Shown: positions 20,856-48,837 of the stretch, piece by piece | Numbering within the stretch: the first letter of the stretch is position 1 | Layout: each line of letters opens with the position of its first letter | NCBI RefSeq assembly: GCF_002952215.1 | Contig: NZ_CP022600.1 | Coordinates: 1,488,001-1,552,000 of the forward strand | From: Porphyrobacter sp. HT-58-2 | GTDB lineage: Bacteria > Pseudomonadota > Alphaproteobacteria > Sphingomonadales > Sphingomonadaceae | Reading direction: 5' to 3' | DNA: 64,000 nucleotides | The notes under the pieces: generated by a model | What the model was told of the DNA's origin: nothing | Seen by the model: only the letters and a program-made list of their open reading frames with translations | Databases searched by the model: none | Program-made: the position numbers and the translations under genes

Positions 20856-21931
20856 ATGCATTTCCTTGACCAAGCCAAGATCTATGTGAAGTCCGGCGGA
20901 GGCGGCCCCGGTGCCGTCTCTTTCCGGCGTGAGAAATATGTCGAATATGGCGGCCCCGATGGCGGCGATGGCGGGCGCGGCGGGGACATCGTGTTCGAAG
21001 CCGTCGCGGGCCTCAACACCCTGATCGACTTCCGCTATTCCCAGCACTTCAAGGCCCGCGCGGCGGCCACGGGATGGGCAAGGACCGCACCGGCGCTTCG
21101 GCCAAGCCGCTCGTCATCAAGGTGCCGGTCGGCACTCAGGTGCTTTCCGAGGACAAGGAAGAAGTGCTCGCCGATTTCACCGAAGTCGGCCAGCGCGTCG
21201 TTTTCCTTGAAGGCGGAATGGGCGGACGCGGGAACGCCAGCTACAAGACCTCGACCAACCGCGCGCCGCGCCAGCATCAGCCGGGCATTCCGGGCGAGGA
21301 AATGTGGGTGTGGCTGCGGCTGAAGCTGCTGGCGGATGTGGGTCTGGTCGGCCTGCCCAATGCTGGCAAATCGACCTTCATCAACGCGGTCAGCAATGCA
21401 CAGGCGAAGGTCGGCGACTATGCCTTCACAACGCTCGTGCCGAAGCTGGGCGTCGTGCGCCACAAGGGCCGCGAATTCGTGCTCGCCGACATTCCCGGCC
21501 TGATCGAGGGCGCGGCAGACGGCGTCGGGATCGGCGACCGCTTCCTTGGCCATATCGAGCGCTGCCGGGTGCTGATCCACCTGATCGACATCACCGGCAC
21601 CGAAGACGCCGACCCCGCCGAAGCCATGCGCATCGTCGAGGAGGAACTGGCGGCTTACGGTGACAAGGAACACACGCGGCTGGATGAAAAGCCCCGGCTG
21701 GTGGTGCTCAACAAGCTCGATCTGGCTGACGCCGAACTGGTTGAGGCCTATCGCGAGGAACTGCTTGCGGCGGGCGCGGACAAGGTCTTTGCCGTCTCCG
21801 GCGCAACCGGGGCGGGCATTCCGGAACTGATGGACGCCGTGCTCGGTTATCTTCCTGACCGCACCGCGACGGAAACCAAGGCGGTCGAAGTCGAAGATGA
21901 CGACGATACGCCAGAATGGTCGCCGCTCTGA
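20856..21931 (+). pseudogene. obg: GTPase Obg/CgtA, split by a one-base frameshift
   Basis: Obg is a ribosome-associated GTPase acting in 50S maturation and stress control, and is essential in nearly all bacteria studied. The N-terminal glycine-rich Obg fold is clear ([32 protein letters not shown]). The G domain has GLPNAGKSTFINAV (G1), DIPGLIEGAADG (G3) and LNKLDLAD (G4). The frame breaks near 21062: one extra G gives [16 protein letters not shown], the expected sequence, and a full protein of 358 residues. An intact gene is therefore likely in the living organism. The gene ends with an acidic tail and is followed 55 bp later by proB, a common obg-proB arrangement. Confidence 0.93.
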
Positions 21932-36539: not shown

Positions 36540-39500
36540 TTGCGAAGATCGGGGGACGGCGTCATTTCTGTAGACACTCTGTTCGCGAGCGCGCCTGCCG
36601 CGTTGACCAATCCCGTGCGCACCCGCGCAGACTGGGAAGCAATGCGCACTGCGGCGCTGGCTGATCCTGGCGCGTTCCACGGCGAAATCGCCGGACGGAA
36701 TATGCATTGGTTCGTGGCCGATTGCGGCGCTGACGGCGCGTGGCTTGCGAAAGGCGAGGACGGCCGCTGGCACGGCTGGGATGCCGCCAGCGCCGCGCCG
36801 GTCAGCCCCGATCTGCCGGACGATTTCACCCCCTGGCATACGGGCTTTGACGGCTCCTGTCCGCCGCATTGGCGCTGGTTTCTCGGCGGGCGCACCAATG
36901 CCGCCTTCAGCGAACTCGACCGGCACGTGCTCGCCGGGCATGGGCACGAAGCGGCGCTGATCTTCGAAGGTGACCGCTGGGACATGTCCGCCAACGGCGG
37001 CAAGGGCGCGCCGATCGACTGCTTCACCGTCAGCCGCAAACGCCTGCTGCTTGAGGTGGCGAAGTGCGCCGTCGCGCTTGAAGCGCTGGGGCTCAAGCCG
37101 GGCGACCGCATGGCCTTGAACATGCCGAGCATCGTGCCGCAGATCTACTGGACCGAAGCGGCCAAGCGGATGGGCGTCGTCTATACGGCGGTGTTCGGGG
37201 GCTTCTCGGACAAGACCCTGTCGGATCGCATCGCCGACACCGCAGCGCGCGTCATCGTCACCAGCGACGGCAGCTACCGCAACGCGCAGGTCGCCGCGTT
37301 CAAGAACGCCTATACCGACCCGGCGCTCGACAATTTCGTGCCGGTGACGACGGCGCTGGCGATCCTTGGCGGGCTCGATCTGGAACTGCCCGAAGGCGGC
37401 CATGAAACGATCCTCGACACCGTGCGCGAGGCGCTGGCGGGCGAGATCACGGTTGACCGTTCCGACGTGATGCGCGGCGTGGGCCGGGCGCTCATCAATC
37501 TGGGCAGCGAGGGCCGGATCACGTCTGCCGATGCCGCGCGGGTGCGGATCGCGATTGCCTCGAGCCTCGTCACCCTGCCGCCGCGGGTCGAGGCGGTGAT
37601 CGTGTGCCGTCATACCAACCAGCCCGACATGATCTGGCGTGAGGAGCGTGACCGCTGGAGCCACGAGCTGACCGACGTGGCGCTGGTCACCGTGCTGGAA
37701 AAGGCGCGCGGCGCGGGCTTTCAGGTCGCATCCGAAGCCGAGCTGATGGCGCTGCCCGACAGCGATTTCGTCCGCGCGATCTGGGCGTCGTCAAAGCCGA
37801 TGCCGGTCGATGCCGACTATCCGATGTTCTTCATCTATACCTCGGGCAGCACCGGCAAGCCGAAGGGGATCGTCCATTCGCACGGCTATGCTGCGGGCGT
37901 CGCCGAGACAATGGCGGCGAGCTTCGACGCGCGCCCCGGGGATACGCTGTTCGTGGTCGCCGATCCGGGCTGGATCACCGGGCAGAGTTATCTCATTTGC
38001 GCGCCGCTGATGACGCGGGTGACCTCGCTGGTGAGCGAAGGCTCGCCCGTCTTCCCCCACGCGGGCCGCTTCGCCTCGATGATCGAGCGGCACCATGTGA
38101 CAATCTTCAAGGCGGGGGTGACCTTCCTCAAGTCGATCATGTCCGACCCTGCGAACCTCGCCGAGGTCGAACGCTACGACATGAGCGGCTTGCGTGTGGC
38201 GACCTTCTGCGCCGAGCCGGTGAGCCCCAGCGTGCAGGCCTTCGGGATGGAGCACGTCACGGAGCGCTACATCAATAGCTACTGGGCCACCGAGCACGGC
38301 GGGATCGCGTGGACGCATATGTTCGCCAACGACGATTTCCCGCTGCGGCCCGATGCCCACGCCTATCCGCTGCCGTGGATCGTCGGCGATGTGTGGGTCG
38401 AGGATGAGGCTGGCACAGGCGCGCCCGCCCCCTTCGCCCGCGCCGACGATGGCGGCGTGTCGTGGCGCAAGGCCGAAACGGGCGAGAAGGGCGAGATCGT
38501 GATCGCCGCGCCTTACCCTTACCTCGCGCGCACCATCTGGGGCGACATCGCGGGCTTCAAGGTTGCCGATGGCCGGGTCGATCCCGCCTGGCGCGGTGAC
38601 GCCAAGCGGTGGGAAGAGGGCTACTGGCGGCGCTGGAAGGGCGCCTGGGCCTATACCCAGGGCGATTTCGCGATCCAGCACGCGGACGGTTCTTTCTCGC
38701 TCCACGGGCGCTCGGATGACGTGATCAACGTTTCGGGCCACCGCATGGGGACCGAGGAAATCGAAGGCGCGGTGCTGCGCGACAAGGCGCTTGCGCCGGA
38801 CTCGCCGGTCGGCAACGTGCTGGTGGTCGGCGCGCCGCACCGCGAGAAGGGGCTGACCCCGCTCGCCTTCGTGGTGCCGGTCGCGGGGCGCAAGCTGACG
38901 CACGAGGACAAGCGCCGGTTGTTCGATCTGGTGCGGACCGAAAAGGGCGCGGTCGCGGTGCCTGCCGACTTCATCGAAGTCTCGCAATTCCCCGAAACCC
39001 GCTCGGGCAAATATATGCGCCGCATGGTCCGCGCGCTGGTGGTGGGCGAGGACGTGGGCGATGTGACCACGCTGAGGAACCCTGAGGCGCTGGACGAGTT
39101 GAAGCGCGTCATCGACGACTGGCAGCGCAAGCAGCGCATGTCGGACGAGCAGGCACTGTTTGACCGGCACCGCTATTTCCTCGTCCAGTACAACACGGTC
39201 GCTCCCGGCAAGCAGGTGGCGACCGTCACCGTCACCAACCCGCCGGTCAACGCGCTCAACGAACGTGCGATTGACGAGCTGGTGCTGGTCACCTCGACGC
39301 TGGCGCGTGACGAGAATGTCGTCGCGGTGGTCTTCACCGGCGAGGGCACCTCGTCCTTCGTCGCCGGGGCGGACATCCGGCAGATGCTGGAGGAGATCCA
39401 CACCGTCGAGGAAGCCATGGTGCTGCCCAACAACGCGCACCTTGCCTTCCGCACCATCGAGAGCATGAACAAGCCCTGCGTCGCGGCAGTGCAGGGCGTG

Positions 39501-42065
39501 GCGCTGGGCGGCGGGATGGAGTTCGCGCTCGCCTGCCATTACCGCATTGCCGAGCCGACCGCGCGCTTCGGCCAGCCCGAAATCCGCCTTCGGCTCCTTC
39601 CCGGCTATGGTGGCACCCAGCGCCTGCCGCGCCTGCTGGCTGACCGGCGCGGGGCTGAGGGGGTGCGCGACGCGCTTGACCTCATCCTCGGCGGGCGGAG
39701 CATCACGGCGGAAGCGGCGACCGATATCGGTCTGGTCGATGAACTGGTTGAAGGGGCGCATGATGCGCTTTCGCAGGCCCATGCGGCGGTGCGCGACTAT
39801 GTGAAGCACGGTGCGGACTCCGCGTTGGGCCGTGCCTTCGCGGAGCGGCAGGCGGCGGTCTCGCGTTGGGAAAGCGCGTCGGACATCAGCCTCGATGCGG
39901 TGCTGGAGGACGACTTCCTCCAGCGCATCCTGCGTCAGCTCGACTGGGCGGGCCGTGGGCAAGCCGGGGCGCGGGCCTTGGAAGCCGTGCGCGCCGGCCT
40001 TGAGCAAGGCATCACCCAGGGCACCGCGCGCGAGGCGAAGCTGTTCGCCGAGGCCATCGTCGATCCCGAGGGCGGCAAGACCGGCATTCGCCAGTTCATG
40101 GACAAGGTCGCCCCGCCGCTCCCTGTCCGCCGTGACGGCGTGTGGATCGATGCCGAGCATGAAATGCGTGCACAGGCGTTGGAAGCGGCAGGCGATCTGC
40201 TGCCCGTGGGCGCGCCGTTCTATCCCGGCGTGACCCCGATCCCCAGCCACCAATACGCCTTCGGCATCGCCCGCGATCCCGACACCGGCCAGCCCCGTTT
40301 CGGCCCGCCCGCGAGCCACGAGAAAGAGCTGATCGTCAAGACGCCCGCGCCCGCGCCCAACGAAGCGCTGCTTTACATGCTGACGAGCGAGGTCAACTTC
40401 AACGACATCTGGGCGCTGACCGGCATCCCCGTCTCGCCCTTCGATGCGCATGAGGAAGATGTGCAGATCACCGGCTCCGGCGGCATCGCGCTGGTCGCGG
40501 CACTGGGCAGCGAGACGCGGGCGCAGGGGCGGATCAAGGTCGGCGATCTGGTAACGGTCTATTCCGGCACCAACGACCTGCTCTCGCCGCAGGTCGGCAA
40601 TGACCCGATGTATGCGGACTTCAGCATTCAGGGCTACGAGACCGAGACCGGCAGCCACGCCCAGTTCCTGACGGTGCAGGCCCCGCAGATGCACAAGGTG
40701 CCGCCTGATCTCACGCTCGAGCAGGCGGGAAGCTATGTGCTGAACCTCGGCACCATCGCGCGCTGCTTGTTCACGACGCTGGAGATCGCGCCGGGGCGGA
40801 CGCTGTTTGTCGAAGGGGCGGCGACGGGGACGGGGCTCGATGCCCTCAGGTCTTCGGTGCGCACGGGCTTGCAGGTGACGGGCCTCGTGTCCTCGGAAGA
40901 GCGCGCGGCGTTCATCACCAAAGTGCAGGGCGCGGTCGGCGCGATCAACCGCAAGGATGCGCGCTTTGCCGATCTCTACACCGTGGTGCCGGAGGACAAG
41001 GCCGAGGCTCAGAAATGGGAAGCGGCAGGCGCGCCGCTGATCGAGGAATACAAGGCGCTCAATGGCGGCAAGCTCGCCGATTATGTGGTCAGCCACGCGG
41101 GCGAGACGGCCTTCCCACGCTCGTTCCAATTGCTGGCCGAAGGCGGAACACTGGCCTTCTATGGCGCCTCGTCCGGCTATCACTTCAGCTTTATGGGCAA
41201 GCCGGGCACGGCCTCACCTGAGGAAATGCTCCGGCGCGCAAGCTTGCGGGGCGGCGAGGCGGTGCTGATCTTCTACGGGCCGGGATCGAGCGAGTTGCTC
41301 GACGAGACCGGGCTCGAAATGATCGAGGCCGCGCGGCGCTTCAACGCCCGCAGCGTCATCGCCACCACCACCGACGGCCAGCGCGAATTCCTGCAATCGC
41401 TGGGGCTGGAGGACGCGATCGAGGGCATCGTCTCCCTTGAATCCATCCGCCGCCGCGAGGGCGCGAATTTCCACTGGCCCGACACCATGCCGCGCCTGCC
41501 CGATGCCAAGGCCGATATCGAGGTCTTCAAGGCCGCCGTGCGCGATTATCAGGACCGGGTGATGAAGCCCTTCGGTTCGGCGGTGGGCAAGATCCTGCGC
41601 TCGCCCGACAATCCGCGTGGCAGCCCCGATCTGGTGTTCGAGCGGGCGGGGCAGGACACGCTTGGCATTTCGACCTCGCTGGTCAAGCCCTTCACCGGGC
41701 GGGTGATCTTTGCGGAAGACCTGTCCGGCTGCCGCTTCACCTTCTACGCTCCGCAGGTCTGGACCCGCCAGCGGCGCATCTACATGCCGACCGCGCAGAT
41801 CTTCGGCACGCACCTGTGCAACGCCTACGAGGTCGCGCGGATGAACGACATGATCGCGGCGGGCCTGCTCGAAGTGACCGAGCCGGAAGTCGTGCCGTGG
41901 GACGGCTTGCCGGAAGCGCATCAGGCGATGTGGGACAACCGCCACACCGGATCGACCTATGTGGTCAATCACGCCCTGCCCGAAATGGGCCTCAGGAGCC
42001 GCGATGCCTTGCTCGAAGCATGGGCTGCGGCTGCATCTGCAAGTTCCGGGGAACCGGAAGGCTGA
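36540..42065 (+). CDS. pcs: trifunctional propionyl-CoA synthase (Pcs)
   Basis: Pcs converts 3-hydroxypropionate, CoA, ATP and NADPH to propionyl-CoA in one fused polypeptide, as in Chloroflexus aurantiacus and Erythrobacter. The 1841 residues hold three domains. A CoA-ligase domain (1 to about 860) has IYTSGSTGKPKGIVHSHG near 430 and GRSDDVINVSGHRMGTEE near 725. A crotonase-type dehydratase (about 880-1220) has FVAGADIRQML and GVALGGGMEFALACHY near 985. A medium-chain enoyl-CoA reductase (about 1270-1841) has SEVNFNDIWALTG and GAATGTGLDALRSS near 1425. The sequence parallels the Chloroflexus enzyme from NPVRTRADWE to VVNHALP. No ATG or GTG fits the start; TTG 36540 is given, but ATT 36564 has a well-placed GGGGGA 7 nt upstream. 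mcr follows. Confidence 0.95.
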   Translation: MRRSGDGVISVDTLFASAPAALTNPVRTRADWEAMRTAALADPGAFHGEIAGRNMHWFVADCGADGAWLAKGEDGRWHGWDAASAAPVSPDLPDDFTPWHTGFDGSCPPHWRWFLGGRTNAAFSELDRHVLAGHGHEAALIFEGDRWDMSANGGKGAPIDCFTVSRKRLLLEVAKCAVALEALGLKPGDRMALNMPSIVPQIYWTEAAKRMGVVYTAVFGGFSDKTLSDRIADTAARVIVTSDGSYRNAQVAAFKNAYTDPALDNFVPVTTALAILGGLDLELPEGGHETILDTVREALAGEITVDRSDVMRGVGRALINLGSEGRITSADAARVRIAIASSLVTLPPRVEAVIVCRHTNQPDMIWREERDRWSHELTDVALVTVLEKARGAGFQVASEAELMALPDSDFVRAIWASSKPMPVDADYPMFFIYTSGSTGKPKGIVHSHGYAAGVAETMAASFDARPGDTLFVVADPGWITGQSYLICAPLMTRVTSLVSEGSPVFPHAGRFASMIERHHVTIFKAGVTFLKSIMSDPANLAEVERYDMSGLRVATFCAEPVSPSVQAFGMEHVTERYINSYWATEHGGIAWTHMFANDDFPLRPDAHAYPLPWIVGDVWVEDEAGTGAPAPFARADDGGVSWRKAETGEKGEIVIAAPYPYLARTIWGDIAGFKVADGRVDPAWRGDAKRWEEGYWRRWKGAWAYTQGDFAIQHADGSFSLHGRSDDVINVSGHRMGTEEIEGAVLRDKALAPDSPVGNVLVVGAPHREKGLTPLAFVVPVAGRKLTHEDKRRLFDLVRTEKGAVAVPADFIEVSQFPETRSGKYMRRMVRALVVGEDVGDVTTLRNPEALDELKRVIDDWQRKQRMSDEQALFDRHRYFLVQYNTVAPGKQVATVTVTNPPVNALNERAIDELVLVTSTLARDENVVAVVFTGEGTSSFVAGADIRQMLEEIHTVEEAMVLPNNAHLAFRTIESMNKPCVAAVQGVALGGGMEFALACHYRIAEPTARFGQPEIRLRLLPGYGGTQRLPRLLADRRGAEGVRDALDLILGGRSITAEAATDIGLVDELVEGAHDALSQAHAAVRDYVKHGADSALGRAFAERQAAVSRWESASDISLDAVLEDDFLQRILRQLDWAGRGQAGARALEAVRAGLEQGITQGTAREAKLFAEAIVDPEGGKTGIRQFMDKVAPPLPVRRDGVWIDAEHEMRAQALEAAGDLLPVGAPFYPGVTPIPSHQYAFGIARDPDTGQPRFGPPASHEKELIVKTPAPAPNEALLYMLTSEVNFNDIWALTGIPVSPFDAHEEDVQITGSGGIALVAALGSETRAQGRIKVGDLVTVYSGTNDLLSPQVGNDPMYADFSIQGYETETGSHAQFLTVQAPQMHKVPPDLTLEQAGSYVLNLGTIARCLFTTLEIAPGRTLFVEGAATGTGLDALRSSVRTGLQVTGLVSSEERAAFITKVQGAVGAINRKDARFADLYTVVPEDKAEAQKWEAAGAPLIEEYKALNGGKLADYVVSHAGETAFPRSFQLLAEGGTLAFYGASSGYHFSFMGKPGTASPEEMLRRASLRGGEAVLIFYGPGSSELLDETGLEMIEAARRFNARSVIATTTDGQREFLQSLGLEDAIEGIVSLESIRRREGANFHWPDTMPRLPDAKADIEVFKAAVRDYQDRVMKPFGSAVGKILRSPDNPRGSPDLVFERAGQDTLGISTSLVKPFTGRVIFAEDLSGCRFTFYAPQVWTRQRRIYMPTAQIFGTHLCNAYEVARMNDMIAAGLLEVTEPEVVPWDGLPEAHQAMWDNRHTGSTYVVNHALPEMGLRSRDALLEAWAAAASASSGEPEG

Positions 42066-42170
42066 CACGTGCGTTGCGATTTTTGAAACGTTCTTCCCTC
42101 TCCTCCCCAGAGAATGAACGAAACACAAAGCGAAGCCCGGCTTCGCGGTAATTCTGTGAGGAGAGAGCTT

Positions 42171-45100
42171 ATGGCCAAATCGAAAGCCGCTGCCGCTGCG
42201 CCCGCCTTGCAGGGCGATGTTCCGGGCCGTCTCGCAGGCAAGATCGCGGTCGTCACCGGCGCGGCGGGCAATCTCGGCGGGCATATCTGCACGCATTATC
42301 TTGCAGAAGGCGCAACCGTGGTGATGACGGGCCGCGCGCCCGAGCGCACCCAGGCCGCCGCCGAGGCGCTCTTGAAGGCGACCGGGGCCGATCCCGCGCG
42401 ACTGGCGACTGTTGCGCTCGACGGCGGCGACATCGCCTCGGTCCGCGCCGCGATCACGCAAGTGGTGAAGCAGTTCGGCCGGATCGACATTCTGGTGAAC
42501 AACGCCGGGAGCGCCGGGCCGAAGCAGCCGATCGAGAACCTGCCGCTTTCCGCCGAGGAACTCGGCCAGCTCCAGAAGCAGGGCAGCACCGACAGCGAGA
42601 CCGTGGCCGATGCGCTGCGCAACATATTCGGGGTCGCATGGAATGTCGCGCGGGTCGCGGCGGAGCATATCCCCGAGGGCGGCTCGATCATCAACGTCTC
42701 GACCATCTTCAGCCGCACGCCCTATTATGCGCGCGCGGCTTACGTTGTCCCCAAGGCGGCGATGAATGCGTGGAGCCGTGAGCTCAGCCTTGAACTTGGC
42801 CCCAAGGGCATCCGGGTGAACCTCGTCTATCCCGGCCCGATCGAGAGCGAGCGCATCCGCTCGGTCTTTGCCGCGATGGATGCAGCGCGCGGGGACGAGG
42901 CAGGCACCACCGCCAGCCAGTTCTTCGACATGATGAGCCTTGAACGGGCCACCGGCGGGAACGACAAGGCCAAGACCTTCCCCACGCCGACCGACATTGC
43001 CACCACTTGCGTGTTCCTCGGCTCGGACGAGAGCGCGGCTTACAACGGCCACGATTTCGAAGTCACCCACGGCATGTCCGTGCGCAAGGAGCAACGCTCG
43101 ACCTACCTTGCGCGGCCGACCATGCGCTCGATGGACGGCACCGGCCTTGCTGTGCTGATCGCGGCGGGGGATGACTGGGAAGAGGCGTTGGAAATCGCGC
43201 AGGTGCAGCTCGCCTGCGGGGCTGCCGTGGTGCTGGGCTTGCCGCGTGCGGCCGACGTTGCGATTGCCGAAAAGCGTTGCAAGGCGCTGGGGCTAACTGA
43301 AGGCCTCTCGATCATCCGCTTCAGCCGGAAAGATCCCGCAGGCATGGAAGCCGCGCTGGAGGATTACACCAGGGGCGGCACTCCGATCAGCGGCGCGCTG
43401 TTCCTCCCCGCTCTGGGCGCAGGCGAGTTGAGTGGCGCGATCACCGCTGCCGATGATGCCGTCGTCGAGGCGCTGATGGACGCCGAACTGGCGGGCAACA
43501 TGGCCTTGGCGCGCACCATGAGCCGTTACTGGAAGCGCCACGACAACCTGCTCCAGCCGCCACGCTTCGTCTTCGTCAGCCATGCGAGCGACGGGAAGGG
43601 CGACATCTACGGCCACATCCTGCGCGCCGCGACCGAACAGCTGATCCGCATCTGGCGCGACGAAAGCGCAATCGACACCGCCCACGGCCGTCGCCGGCAA
43701 GCCGAGTGGGGCAACCAGATCGTGCGCTTCACCAACACCGAGGCCGAGAACATCCGCTTCACCGCGGGCCATGCCGCGCGCATCCTGCTGAAGGAAAGCA
43801 AGCTCGGCGAGATCACGCTCTATGTCCCCGCGAACATCGGCGAGGCGACGGGGGCGAGGAAGGCCATGCCCGGCTTCTCCGAGAACATCACCGGGCTGCA
43901 TCTCGGCAAGGTCGCGCTGATCACCGGCGGGTCAGCGGGGATCGGCGGGCAGGTGGCGCGGCTCTTGGCGCTGGCGGGCGGCAAGGTGATGATGGTCGCC
44001 CGCCGCGAAAGCGAGCTGGCAGTCGCCCGGGCGCGGATTGTCTCCGAGCTGGAGGATATCGGCTTTGCGGGGGTCGAGCGGCGGGTGCAGACCCTCGCCA
44101 ATGTCGATGTCAGCAATTTCGAGAGCCTGAAAGGTGCCGTTGACGCGACGCTCAAGGCCTTCGGGCGGATCGACTACCTCATCAACAACGCGGGCGTTGC
44201 CGGCGCGGAGGACATGGTCGTCGACATGGGGGTCGACGCGTGGAACTACACGCTCGATGCGAACCTCGTGTCGAACTACTTCCTGATGCACCACGTCGCC
44301 CCGCTGATGAAGGCGCAAGGGTCGGGCTACATCCTCAACGTCTCGTCCTATTTCGGCGGGGAGAAGTATCTCGCGGTCGCCTATCCCAACCGCGCGGATT
44401 ACGCCGTGTCCAAGGCGGGCCAGCGCGCGATGGTCGAGAGCATGGCGCGCTATCTCGGGCCGGAGGTGCAGTTCAACGCGATCGCGCCGGGGCCGGTGGA
44501 TGGCGACCGCCTGTCCGGCACCGGCGGCAAGCCGGGCCTGTTCGAGCGGCGCGGCAAGCTGATCCTCGAGAACAAGCGATTGAACGCCGTCCACGCCGCC
44601 ACGATCAAGGCGATCCGGCGCGGGGTGCGGGTCGAGGCGGTGCTGGCGCGGCTCGCCCGCAATGACACCGTCAAGATGAGCCACGATACCAACAACCCGC
44701 GCGAACTGCGCGAGCTGGCGCTGGCCTGCGCGCGCGAGGGCGATGGCACCTGCACCTGGGACCAGTATCTCCTGACCCCGCAGATCGCCGCCGGCCTGAT
44801 CGGGCGTCTGAGGCAGGCGGGCCTGTTTCTCGACGCGCCCGAATGGAACGACCGCTCGCCTGCCGAGGACGGCGAATGGCTGCTGCGTGTCCCGCCCGAG
44901 GATGCGCCCTTCCTGCCCGCCGACAAGATCGCGGCCGAGGCCAAGAAGGTCGGCGGCGGGGTGCTGTCCAAGCTCTATCTCGGCAAGATGCCGACCGAGC
45001 ACGACGTGGCGCAGGCGACGGTGTTCTTCCTCGCCGACCGGGCGGTTTCGGGCGAGACCTTCATGCCCTCGGGCGGGCTCTCGGTCGAACGCTCGACCAC

Positions 45101-45863
45101 CGAGCGCGAGCTGTTCGGCAGCCCCAAGCAGGAGCGGCTCGACCAGATGCGCGGCAAGACGGTGTGGATCATCGGCGAACATCTCGCCGATTACCTCGCC
45201 GAAACCGCGCGCGCCTTCATCGAGGATTGCCATGCGGCGAACGTGGTCGTCATCACCCGCACCGCCGAGGCTTTCGAGGCGATCAAGGCGCAGCTCGAGC
45301 CCGAGACCGCCGAGGCGCTGACCTCGCTGGTCAAGACCACCGACATCGAAGCCGCGATGGACGAGGCGCTGCTCGCCTGGGGCAAGCCGACCACGATCCT
45401 CTCGACCCCGATGTCGGCGCTGCCCGGCAAGCTGTTCGACAGCGCCGATCCGCTCACGCCGGACGAATTCCGCACCGTGGTGGCCGACAACCTCACCCAC
45501 CATTTCCGCGTCTCGCGCCGCGCCTCGCTCTATGATGATTGCCAGCTGGTGCTGACCAGCCCCGACGTGCCGATGGGCGACAAGTCCCCGGCCTTTGCGC
45601 TGGCGAACTTCATCAAGACCACGCTCCACGCCTTCACCGCGACTCTGGCCGTGGAGAACGAGCGGCTGGTGCATGATGTGCCGGTCAACCAGATCAACCT
45701 CACGCGCCGCGTCCAGTCCGAAGAACCGCGCGATCTCGACGAGCATCTGGAGGAAGTCCGACGCTTCGCCCGCGCGGTGCTGCTGGTCGGCGCGCCGCTG
45801 CCGGATGCGGAGGATTCGCGCTACCGTGCAAGAATCTATCGCGGCATGTCGATGACGGTGTAA
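42171..45863 (+). CDS. mcr: bifunctional malonyl-CoA reductase (Mcr)
   Basis: Mcr reduces malonyl-CoA to malonate semialdehyde (C-terminal half) and then to 3-hydroxypropionate (N-terminal half) with NADPH. The ATG at 42171 follows GAGGAGAG and gives 1230 residues, close to the 1220 of Chloroflexus; an upstream ATG at 42114 lacks such a site. The N-terminal SDR pair has VVTGAAGNLGGH, VNNAGSAG, NVSTIFSR and YVVPKAAMN. The C-terminal pair has GLHLGKVALITGGSAGIGGQ (near residue 577), LINNAGVAGAEDMV, LNVSSYFGGEK and YAVSKAGQR, plus EFALANFIKTT-like ALANFIKTTLHAFTAT near the end. It lies 105 bp after pcs and 9 bp before accA. Confidence 0.96.
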   Translation: MAKSKAAAAAPALQGDVPGRLAGKIAVVTGAAGNLGGHICTHYLAEGATVVMTGRAPERTQAAAEALLKATGADPARLATVALDGGDIASVRAAITQVVKQFGRIDILVNNAGSAGPKQPIENLPLSAEELGQLQKQGSTDSETVADALRNIFGVAWNVARVAAEHIPEGGSIINVSTIFSRTPYYARAAYVVPKAAMNAWSRELSLELGPKGIRVNLVYPGPIESERIRSVFAAMDAARGDEAGTTASQFFDMMSLERATGGNDKAKTFPTPTDIATTCVFLGSDESAAYNGHDFEVTHGMSVRKEQRSTYLARPTMRSMDGTGLAVLIAAGDDWEEALEIAQVQLACGAAVVLGLPRAADVAIAEKRCKALGLTEGLSIIRFSRKDPAGMEAALEDYTRGGTPISGALFLPALGAGELSGAITAADDAVVEALMDAELAGNMALARTMSRYWKRHDNLLQPPRFVFVSHASDGKGDIYGHILRAATEQLIRIWRDESAIDTAHGRRRQAEWGNQIVRFTNTEAENIRFTAGHAARILLKESKLGEITLYVPANIGEATGARKAMPGFSENITGLHLGKVALITGGSAGIGGQVARLLALAGGKVMMVARRESELAVARARIVSELEDIGFAGVERRVQTLANVDVSNFESLKGAVDATLKAFGRIDYLINNAGVAGAEDMVVDMGVDAWNYTLDANLVSNYFLMHHVAPLMKAQGSGYILNVSSYFGGEKYLAVAYPNRADYAVSKAGQRAMVESMARYLGPEVQFNAIAPGPVDGDRLSGTGGKPGLFERRGKLILENKRLNAVHAATIKAIRRGVRVEAVLARLARNDTVKMSHDTNNPRELRELALACAREGDGTCTWDQYLLTPQIAAGLIGRLRQAGLFLDAPEWNDRSPAEDGEWLLRVPPEDAPFLPADKIAAEAKKVGGGVLSKLYLGKMPTEHDVAQATVFFLADRAVSGETFMPSGGLSVERSTTERELFGSPKQERLDQMRGKTVWIIGEHLADYLAETARAFIEDCHAANVVVITRTAEAFEAIKAQLEPETAEALTSLVKTTDIEAAMDEALLAWGKPTTILSTPMSALPGKLFDSADPLTPDEFRTVVADNLTHHFRVSRRASLYDDCQLVLTSPDVPMGDKSPAFALANFIKTTLHAFTATLAVENERLVHDVPVNQINLTRRVQSEEPRDLDEHLEEVRRFARAVLLVGAPLPDAEDSRYRARIYRGMSMTV

Positions 45864-45872
45864 AGCGCGGGT

Positions 45873-46710
45873 GTGATCCAGTACCTGTCCTTCGAAAAGC
45901 CGATCGAGGCGCTCGACAAGCATGTGGCAGAGCTTGCCGCGCTGCCCGAAGGCGTGGCCGAAGCGCGGATGCTGCAGGAACGGGCGGACAAGCTGCTTGC
46001 AGACACCTATGCGCGCCTCTCCCCGTGGGAGCGTACGCTGGTCGCGCGCCACCCTCAGCGCCCCCGCTTCGAGAAGCTGGTGGCGGGGCTGTTCAGCGAA
46101 TTCCTCCCCATCGCGGGGGACCGCACCTTCGGCGACGATCAGGCGATCATCGGCGGCTTTGCGCGTTTCGAGGGGCGCAAGGTGGTGGTGATCGGTCATG
46201 TGAAGGGCGAGGACACGCCGGGGCGGCTCAAGCACAATTTCGGCATGGCCCGGCCCGAAGGCTATCGCAAGGCGATCCGGCTGATGGAACTGGCCGACCG
46301 GTTCGGCCTGCCGGTGGTGACACTGGTCGATACCCCCGGCGCCTTCCCCGGCGTCGATGCCGAGGCGCGCGGGCAGGGCGGTGGCGCTCGCCGCGGCGAA
46401 CCGTGTGCTGATGCTCGAACACGCAGTCTATTCGGTGATCAGCCCCGAAGGCTGCGCCTCGATCCTGTGGCGCAGCGCTGCGCAGGCAGCGACGGCGGCC
46501 GAGGCGATGAAGGTGACAGCGGGCGACCTACTCAAATTGGGCGTCATCCACCGCATCGTCTATGAACCGAGGGGCGGGGCGCACCGCGACCATGCCGAGA
46601 CCGTCAAGCGCCTGACGCTGGCTCTGCGCGCCGAGCTTGATGCGCTCGCCGCGATGACCCCCGCCGAACTGCGTCATGAGCGCGAGGAGTTCTTCCTCCG
46701 GCTGGGTTAG
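45873..46710 (+). pseudogene. accA: acetyl-CoA carboxylase carboxyltransferase subunit alpha (AccA), internally deleted
   Basis: AccA with AccD transfers the carboxyl group from biotin to acetyl-CoA, making malonyl-CoA. The N-terminal part starts at GTG 45873 (IQYLSFEKPIEAL) and runs through GDRTFGDDQAIIGGFARF, RPEGYRKAIRLMELADRF and DTPGAFPGVDAEARGQ. At about 46377 the frame changes and the sequence resumes with AVALAAANRVLMLEH and SVISPEGCASILWRS. Family alignment from memory (E. coli has 30 residues here, ending GEGGSGG) implies 89 nt missing, which also explains the frame. The repaired product would be 308 residues. The lost Gly-rich motif helps bind acyl-CoA and stabilise the enolate, so this copy would be inactive as written. 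Its place 9 bp after mcr suggests dedicated malonyl-CoA supply. Confidence 0.9.
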
Positions 46711-47599: not shown

Positions 47600-47675
<76 letters not shown>

Positions 47676-47715
47676 ACAGGGCTTGTGGTGGGGCGCTCTA
47701 AGCCCAGAACGCCCC

Positions 47716-47960
47716 GCCCTCAAGTAGCAAAGCGGTAGGGCAGCAAAAACGCCCTCAAGTAGCAAAGCGGTAGGGCCACTAAAACGCCCTCAGGCAGCGA
47801 AGCGGTAGGGCAGCAAAAACGCCCTCAAGTAGCAAAGCGGTAGGGCAGCAAAAACGCCCTCAAGTAGCAAAGCGGTAGGGCAGCAAAAACGCCCTCAAGT
47901 AGCAAAGCGGTAGGGCAGCAAAAACGCCCTCAAGCAGCGAAGCGGTAGGGCAACTAAAAC
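47716..47960 (-). repeat. seven tandem 35-bp terminator-like hairpin units
   Basis: Seven consecutive units of exactly 35 bp begin at 47716, 47751, 47786, 47821, 47856, 47891 and 47926. Four internal or terminal units are identical and units 2, 3 and 7 differ slightly. Each reads GCCCT...AGGGC as the stem on the plus strand with an A-run after it. On the minus strand the order is hairpin GCCCTACCGC...GAGGGC followed by GTTTTTG or GTTTTAG, an intrinsic terminator shape. The last unit contains the stop codon of the upstream minus-strand gene (47954-47956). The array sits between that gene and tRNA-Thr. Confidence 0.85.
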
Positions 47961-48837
47961 GCGCCGAAAGTCCAGCCTTCCGTGCGCGCGATAGCCGGGG
48001 TGAGAGCGCAGGGGTGCCACAACTCCCGCTCTCCATGCACCCGGCGGAGCCAAGCGGCGGTCAGCAGCGCGTCGGCGGAGTGGTCGTCGATTCCGCCTTC
48101 GCCCGCGACCGGGGGGAGCCGAGATGATCAAGCGCGTCGTTCAGCGCGGCAAAGCTGCGCACTTTGGTCGCCGCTCCCGCCACACCGCCAAGCCGGGCGG
48201 CAACCGAGGTGTAGATTTCGGTCACCACCGATCCGCTGTCCGGCAAGGGGTCGACCGGCCACACCGGCACCCGCCCGCCGAGCCGGTGCAGCATCCGCAT
48301 TCCGGTGAGGCTCGACTTGCCGACCTGCGCAGCGCCGACGAGATTGAAATTGCTCACCGGCCGCACGCCCTGATTGCGCTGGGCAGCCTCGGCTACCCGG
48401 AAACGGCCCTCGCGGTTTGCGGCTCCGGGGAGAAGGAAACGATCGCCCACTTCGCCCGCGCCGTGGCGGAAATAGCGAGAGGCTTGCGCGTGGCTGACAA
48501 AGCCGCCCGCCTCAAGATTGGGATCAGCGGCGCACAACCGGTCAATCAACGCCCATAGCCCGCGCGCATCGGGCGGCGAGGCGTCCCAGCCGGGAAAGAA
48601 CGCGCCTGCATCGGCAAACGGCAGGCCGATACCGAGATCGAGCCCCACCAGCGTCGGTGCTTCGAGGCTGACGAGCAATGCCAGCACTTCGGCGCGCGCC
48701 CATCCGCGTGGATCGGGCGGGGCGATCAGCACCGGTGGCCCGCCATCAGCCCGCGCTACGGCGAGAGCGATGCCCTTCTGGCGCGCGCCCTTCGCACCCG
48801 ACCAGTCGACCGCAAGGAAGTGGGAAAAGCGGCTCAC
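47954..48837 (-). pseudogene. DUF429-like RNase-H-fold protein, frameshifted near the C-terminus
   Basis: The N-terminal FLAVDWSGAKGARQKGIALA and LVGLDLGIGLPF fit DUF429-like proteins, a predicted RNase-H-fold (nuclease-like) family; the function is unknown. As written the frame ends at 48061 (258 residues) in a basic nonsense tail. Adding one C to the run of six at 48111-48116 restores SPPVAGEGGIDDHSADALLTA and a tail ending GWTFGAF, stopping at 47954. That DDHSADALLTA stretch, with acidic residues before a helix, is what such proteins have near their end. The repaired product would be 294 residues. Its start overlaps the rarA stop by 4 bp. Confidence 0.7.

Follow-up and report, generated by a model that had tools for sequence, protein, structure and literature searches.

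The pcs and mcr genes of Porphyrobacter sp. HT-58-2 are predicted to form a metabolic module for light-driven CO2 co-assimilation and anaplerosis, not for autotrophy, a reading to which we assign a probability of roughly 75%. As judged from its genes, the locus in the window (the whole stretch of 64,000 nucleotides that was analysed) is a real example of a module already known from Erythrobacter NAP1, Porphyrobacter dokdonensis and strain ULC335, and it comprises two intact genes and a broken third. Two points are new. Within the genomes examined, the module is almost exclusive to bearers of a photosynthetic reaction centre, and pcs probably starts at an AUU codon. The locus contains the following features:

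36551..36556, + strand: Shine-Dalgarno-like GGGGGA, 7 nt 5' of the ATT of pcs
36564..42065, + strand: pcs, predicted propionyl-CoA synthase with CoA ligase, enoyl-CoA hydratase and reductase parts; 1833 codons when counted from the ATT, its probable start, with a 6eqo match and Pfam domains
42171..45863, + strand: mcr, predicted bifunctional malonyl-CoA reductase; 1230 codons, with 6k8s and 6k8v matches and YxxRxxYxxxK motifs
45873..46710, + strand: putative accA paralogue remnant; lacks 89 nt near 46375 compared with genomes G260 and G383, frame shifted, GEGGSGGA lost

Solved homologues, conserved motifs and trees support the predicted identity of both enzymes, which the preliminary description had named correctly. 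In the comparison with solved structures, residues 29-1838 of Pcs match 6eqo, which we take to be the propionyl-CoA synthase of Erythrobacter sp. NAP1, with 2896 bits. The two proteins share the same three catalytic parts in the same order, and the Pfam domains AMP-binding, ECH_1 and ADH_zinc_N all lie in one chain of the window protein. The sequences YTSGSTGKPKG, SGKYMRR, LGGGME and GQPE are found in Pcs, where they presumably serve as ligase and hydratase motifs. Mcr is fully covered by two parts that match 6k8s (1430 bits) and 6k8v (1182 bits), both presumably structures of P. dokdonensis malonyl-CoA reductase. These structural matches are far above chance. The P. dokdonensis enzyme comes from another species and has the same YxxRxxY motifs, and no functional difference from the window Mcr was seen at the sequence level. 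In the window Mcr, Pfam delineates two SDR halves, and the two YxxRxxYxxxK motifs occupy residues 185-195 and 738-748. The NAP1 synthase is named in PMC11599936; PMC10470521 names the P. dokdonensis structures and describes Roseiflexus malonyl-CoA reductase as a pair of catalytic SDR halves that carry YxxRxxY and a Lys.

The layout of a single strand with gaps of 105 bp (pcs to mcr) and 9 bp (mcr to the third open frame) agrees with the preliminary description, as does a 1230-residue, two-half SDR protein that runs from the ATG at 42171 to 45863. This ATG is preceded by GGAGAG with a spacing of 5 nt. Fusions of Pcs with Mcr were considered for several long open frames and rejected. The frames at G134 and L155 both carry a stop after pcs, the two genes of L030/L140 (one genome) lack an intervening stop yet differ in frame, and those of L053/L086 (G312) are in frame but have one TGA counted inside the pcs match and were judged not to be fused.

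The 1841-residue length first given for the three-domain protein corresponds to the mechanical open frame, 36540-42065 on the + strand, counted from a TTG. The open frame and its domains stand, but a start at the ATT at 36564, which yields 1833 residues, is better supported. Among the homologues listed, 17 of 36 start exactly at this place, 33 residues 5' of a conserved DPGxFHG-like block, the first residue being M in 16 and L in one. ATG occupies the site in L129, L134, L136 and L181, and ATT occupies it in all seven close species (the window, L059, which is the same genome as L132, L060, L130, L133, L139 and L141), each with a G-rich run 7-8 nt upstream. Elsewhere in these pcs genes, ATT accounts for 5-18% of the isoleucine codons. 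The listed homologues P0124-P0127 and P0132 also have Ile at the site, with annotated starts further upstream. As a start codon, the TTG at 36540 would be nothing unusual, and an NTG lies five codons 3' of the ATT in all seven species (CTG in four, GTG in one and ATG in two). Nevertheless, initiation at either place is unlikely, because the ATT coincides with the start of these 17 homologues, five of the seven species have no in-frame ATG, GTG or TTG 5' of the ATT, a TAG stands in frame five codons 5' of it in L139, and the script saw no Shine-Dalgarno sequence close to either of the two rival codons. The rare codon AUU at 36564 is thus the probable start. infC is a known AUU-start gene, and pcnB is reportedly another, to judge from the title of a study. 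If true, conserved initiation at AUU in so large a metabolic enzyme would add to this short list and would explain the scattered annotated starts among homologues in the Erythrobacter/Porphyrobacter branch. An inverted repeat, GTAAT-N8-ATTAC, was considered as a conserved operator 5' of pcs and dropped; it occurs in one of 65 upstream stretches, the window's own.

The third gene had been described as accA, ending at 46710 and completing a working trio with pcs and mcr. The open frame (45873-46565, + strand, 230 aa) in fact stops at 46565, and the stop at 46710 belongs to another frame. The ACCA domain is split, with profile positions 1-171 in this frame and 199-310 in another. Alignment with the genes that follow mcr in G260 and G383 places the loss of 89 nt, including the GEGGSGGA motif, and the frame shift near 46375. 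The motif is kept in all 120 homologues of the G383 copy among the matches listed (120 of 8000 scored), which are 304-316 residues long; a single open ACCA frame with GEGGSGGA is absent from the window's third gene. This gene is, as far as the alignments tell, a remnant of an accA paralogue, so the trio is not supported. A complete accA is located elsewhere in the same genome (C1:2124715), and malonyl-CoA, if made, would need its subunit from another accA than the broken one.

Frame breaks compared with G260 and G383 proteins also occur near window positions 21050 and 48113, the latter in a run of six G, and are possible assembly faults. These small breaks, together with a break in a GC run of the mutase gene (see below), would fit the explanation that the accA break is an assembly fault as well and that pcs, mcr and accA work as a trio in the strain. 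In 8 of the 29 other family loci, mcr is followed by an unbroken accA match. This explanation is rather improbable, since those other breaks are small whereas accA lacks 89 nt in one piece, which is not a product of single-base errors. Overall, accA is unbroken after mcr in 8 of 30 family loci (L028-L034 and L036, with partial matches at one end in L034 and L036) and broken in the window's own, and it directly follows mcr in 17 of the 57 named loci L129-L185 as read by eye; both counts are limited by contig ends, and some genomes are common to both sets.

Quick trees were built from 47 Mcr rows and 36 Pcs rows, with midpoint roots for drawing only. In both, the window protein lies among Porphyrobacter/Erythrobacter rows, with gammaproteobacteria and then Chloroflexota outside. 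The two proteins therefore belong within proteobacterial Pcs and Mcr, and a placement outside the known clades was not seen in either tree. The nearest Mcr row is Porphyrobacter RI_32, which the Pcs tree puts outside the window's group; the trees thus differ locally. Aerophototrophica and another row labelled Rhodospirillaceae (L138, L177) branch within the sphingomonad group in the Mcr and the Pcs tree alike, a placement suggestive of lateral transfer. L185 forms a very long branch. The 3-hydroxypropionate bi-cycle of Chloroflexus and Roseiflexus uses the same two hallmark enzymes as the window, and the Roseiflexus locus L169 shows 47% (Mcr) and 58% (Pcs) against the window proteins. The bi-cycle outside Chloroflexota is treated in PMC9802188.

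Genes flanking the locus are common to the window, G260 and several named Erythrobacter/Porphyrobacter loci, which indicates that the locus has a stable position in this group. G260 is probably Porphyrobacter sp. ULC335. If so, ULC335 shares with the window the gene order pcs-mcr-accA, the flanking genes and the ATT, and its Mcr is 95% identical; its accA is unbroken, in contrast to that of the window. Downstream of the locus, a tRNA-Thr gene (47600-47675) adjoins a tandem array of a 35-bp unit (window 47715-47962; about 7 copies, 92% match).

The association with phototrophy was measured in a family sample of 397 genomes drawn evenly from a larger group, with Mcr called at E <= 1e-120. Mcr was found in 39 genomes, Pcs in 41 and the reaction-centre proteins PufL/M in 76. 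PufL/M accompany Mcr in 37 of 39 genomes, the two others being 67% and 88% complete, and Pcs in 38 of 41. In the 360 good genomes (completeness of 90% or more, contamination of 5% or less), PufL/M occur in every one of the 36 Mcr bearers, compared with 72 of 360 overall. The hypergeometric probability of this link, in which shared ancestry is ignored, is 9.5e-30 for good genomes, 2.2e-28 for all 397 and 9e-6 for genera, where the overlap is 11 of 12 by hand count. Six of the 11 genomes of the window's own genus have PufL/M, and all three with Mcr are among these six. The genome of HT-58-2 itself encodes PufL and PufM, in line with the phototrophy genes for which a search had been proposed. Conversely, Mcr is absent from 36 of the 72 good phototroph genomes, so the module is optional.

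The Pcs counts also bear on the idea that Pcs mainly assimilates external 3-hydroxypropionate, with Mcr secondary. Such uptake would need Pcs alone by established chemistry, and 2 of the 41 Pcs-positive genomes (G267 and G298) lack an Mcr match. These genomes are 76% and 71% complete, however, Pcs is present in all 39 Mcr-positive genomes of the sample, pcs lies directly 5' of mcr in the joined loci listed, and a salvage enzyme would not need a reaction centre. This role is therefore very unlikely.

Beyond the family sample, a type-II reaction-centre match (PufL/M) was obtained in 34 of 44 further Mcr-bearing records. These 44 were taken from 57 named Mcr loci. The remaining 13 comprise 11 genomes of the family sample, all with PufL/M, and two short contigs, L158 and L162. 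The ten records without a type-II match are a Sphingomonas MAG (L135), four Chlorobiota (L171, L172, L173 and L180), a Chloroflexaceae MAG (L175), two gammaproteobacterial MAGs (L182 and L183), one of the Chloroheliaceae (L184) and L185 (31% identity), and they count against the proposed role. Chlorobiota and Chloroheliaceae use type-I reaction centres. The record L163, titled as a Klebsiella pneumoniae MAG (2.1 Mb), contains Pcs, Mcr and PufL/M and groups with gammaproteobacteria, and its title looks wrong. No statement of a family-wide association between the module and the reaction centre was found in the open-access PMC literature. A link between the module and photosynthesis is already hinted at in print, since PMC9802188 remarks that photosynthesis is likewise predicted for its two Burkholderiales families that have the bi-cycle.

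The overall conversion is acetyl-CoA + bicarbonate + 2 ATP + 3 NADPH to propionyl-CoA. In the proposed route, acetyl-CoA carboxylase would form malonyl-CoA, Mcr would reduce it with 2 NADPH to 3-hydroxypropionate, and Pcs would activate this product with ATP, dehydrate it and reduce it with NADPH to propionyl-CoA inside one multidomain enzyme. Conversion onward to succinyl-CoA would proceed through propionyl-CoA carboxylase, an epimerase and a B12-dependent mutase. Light-derived ATP and NADPH would thereby be spent on the co-assimilation of bicarbonate and C2 units, which would fill the TCA cycle and balance redox without autotrophy. We infer that the enzymes are active, that flux runs through them in a light-dependent manner, and that the other accA and the mutase step are used.

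The genome (one contig of 3,279,145 bases, 99.96% complete) contains both downstream enzymes that the preliminary description had called for, with a reservation for the second. The beta and alpha genes of propionyl-CoA carboxylase are present near the mutase gene. The methylmalonyl-CoA mutase gene (L057:7406-9569, equal to C1:2113406-2115569) was found, but one extra base in a GC run causes it to be read in two frames. Given that the window has other small breaks, this shift may be an assembly fault. G260, G383, G041 and G121 each have an unbroken mutase, and a mutase match came from 35 of the 36 genomes examined (28 of them Mcr-positive); the exception, G219 (Mcr- and PufL/M-positive, 99% complete), gave no mutase match. 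In the 20 kb around the mutase (L057), the enoyl-CoA hydratase gene just 5' of it is also split according to the same frame-break script, and antisense frames that the script listed there were taken as artefacts.

The shifted mutase gene and G219 would also suit a module that serves chiefly as an electron sink, at 3 NADPH per acetyl-CoA, with propionyl-CoA passing to odd-chain lipids, a storage polymer or the methylcitrate cycle and not to succinyl-CoA. The reaction-centre link is as compatible with an outlet for light-derived reductant as with anaplerosis. A predominant sink is nonetheless unlikely, because the mutase match is unbroken in 34 of the 35 other genomes examined and the carboxylase genes are close neighbours of the mutase gene in the window's own genome.

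Malate synthase was matched in 79 of 80 genomes: all 36 good Mcr-positive genomes, 35 of 36 good phototrophs without Mcr (the exception being G226) and 8 of 8 others. The matches fall into two score classes (E of about 1e-105 and 1e-60) split by genus, probably two enzyme types. Caulobacter has the glyoxylate route. Isocitrate lyase, used as a marker of this route, gave no match in any of the 397 genomes at E 1e-60, a result of little weight because the Caulobacter control was also without a match. Since malate synthase and the mutase are kept, the module seems to supplement other routes, not to substitute for them.

Co-assimilation with anaplerosis is favoured by the structural matches, the motifs, the trees, the PufL/M association, the carboxylase genes near the mutase and the presence of the mutase in 35 of 36 genomes. 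Against it weigh the shift in the own mutase gene, G219, the half of the good phototroph genomes that lack the module and malate synthase in every good Mcr-positive genome, by which the module is not the sole possible C2 route. Further support is provided by ULC335, in which, according to PMC10674011, 3-hydroxypropionate genes rise by day and CO2 co-assimilation was proposed; the same study compares the strain with NAP1 and calls full autotrophy unlikely. A passage of PMC8307300 likewise states that part of the 3-hydroxypropionate cycle could refill the TCA cycle.

A broader proposal, to which we give slightly less than even odds, is that pcs-mcr is a photosynthesis accessory, kept or gained only beside a reaction centre in several phyla, that would give ATP and NADPH a light-powered outlet, and that in the Erythrobacter/Porphyrobacter branch the AUU of pcs, policed by IF3, would brake the synthesis of an enzyme of ~1830 residues at initiation. 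The two-gene module offers a clean target for asking how aerobic anoxygenic phototrophs use light-derived reducing power.
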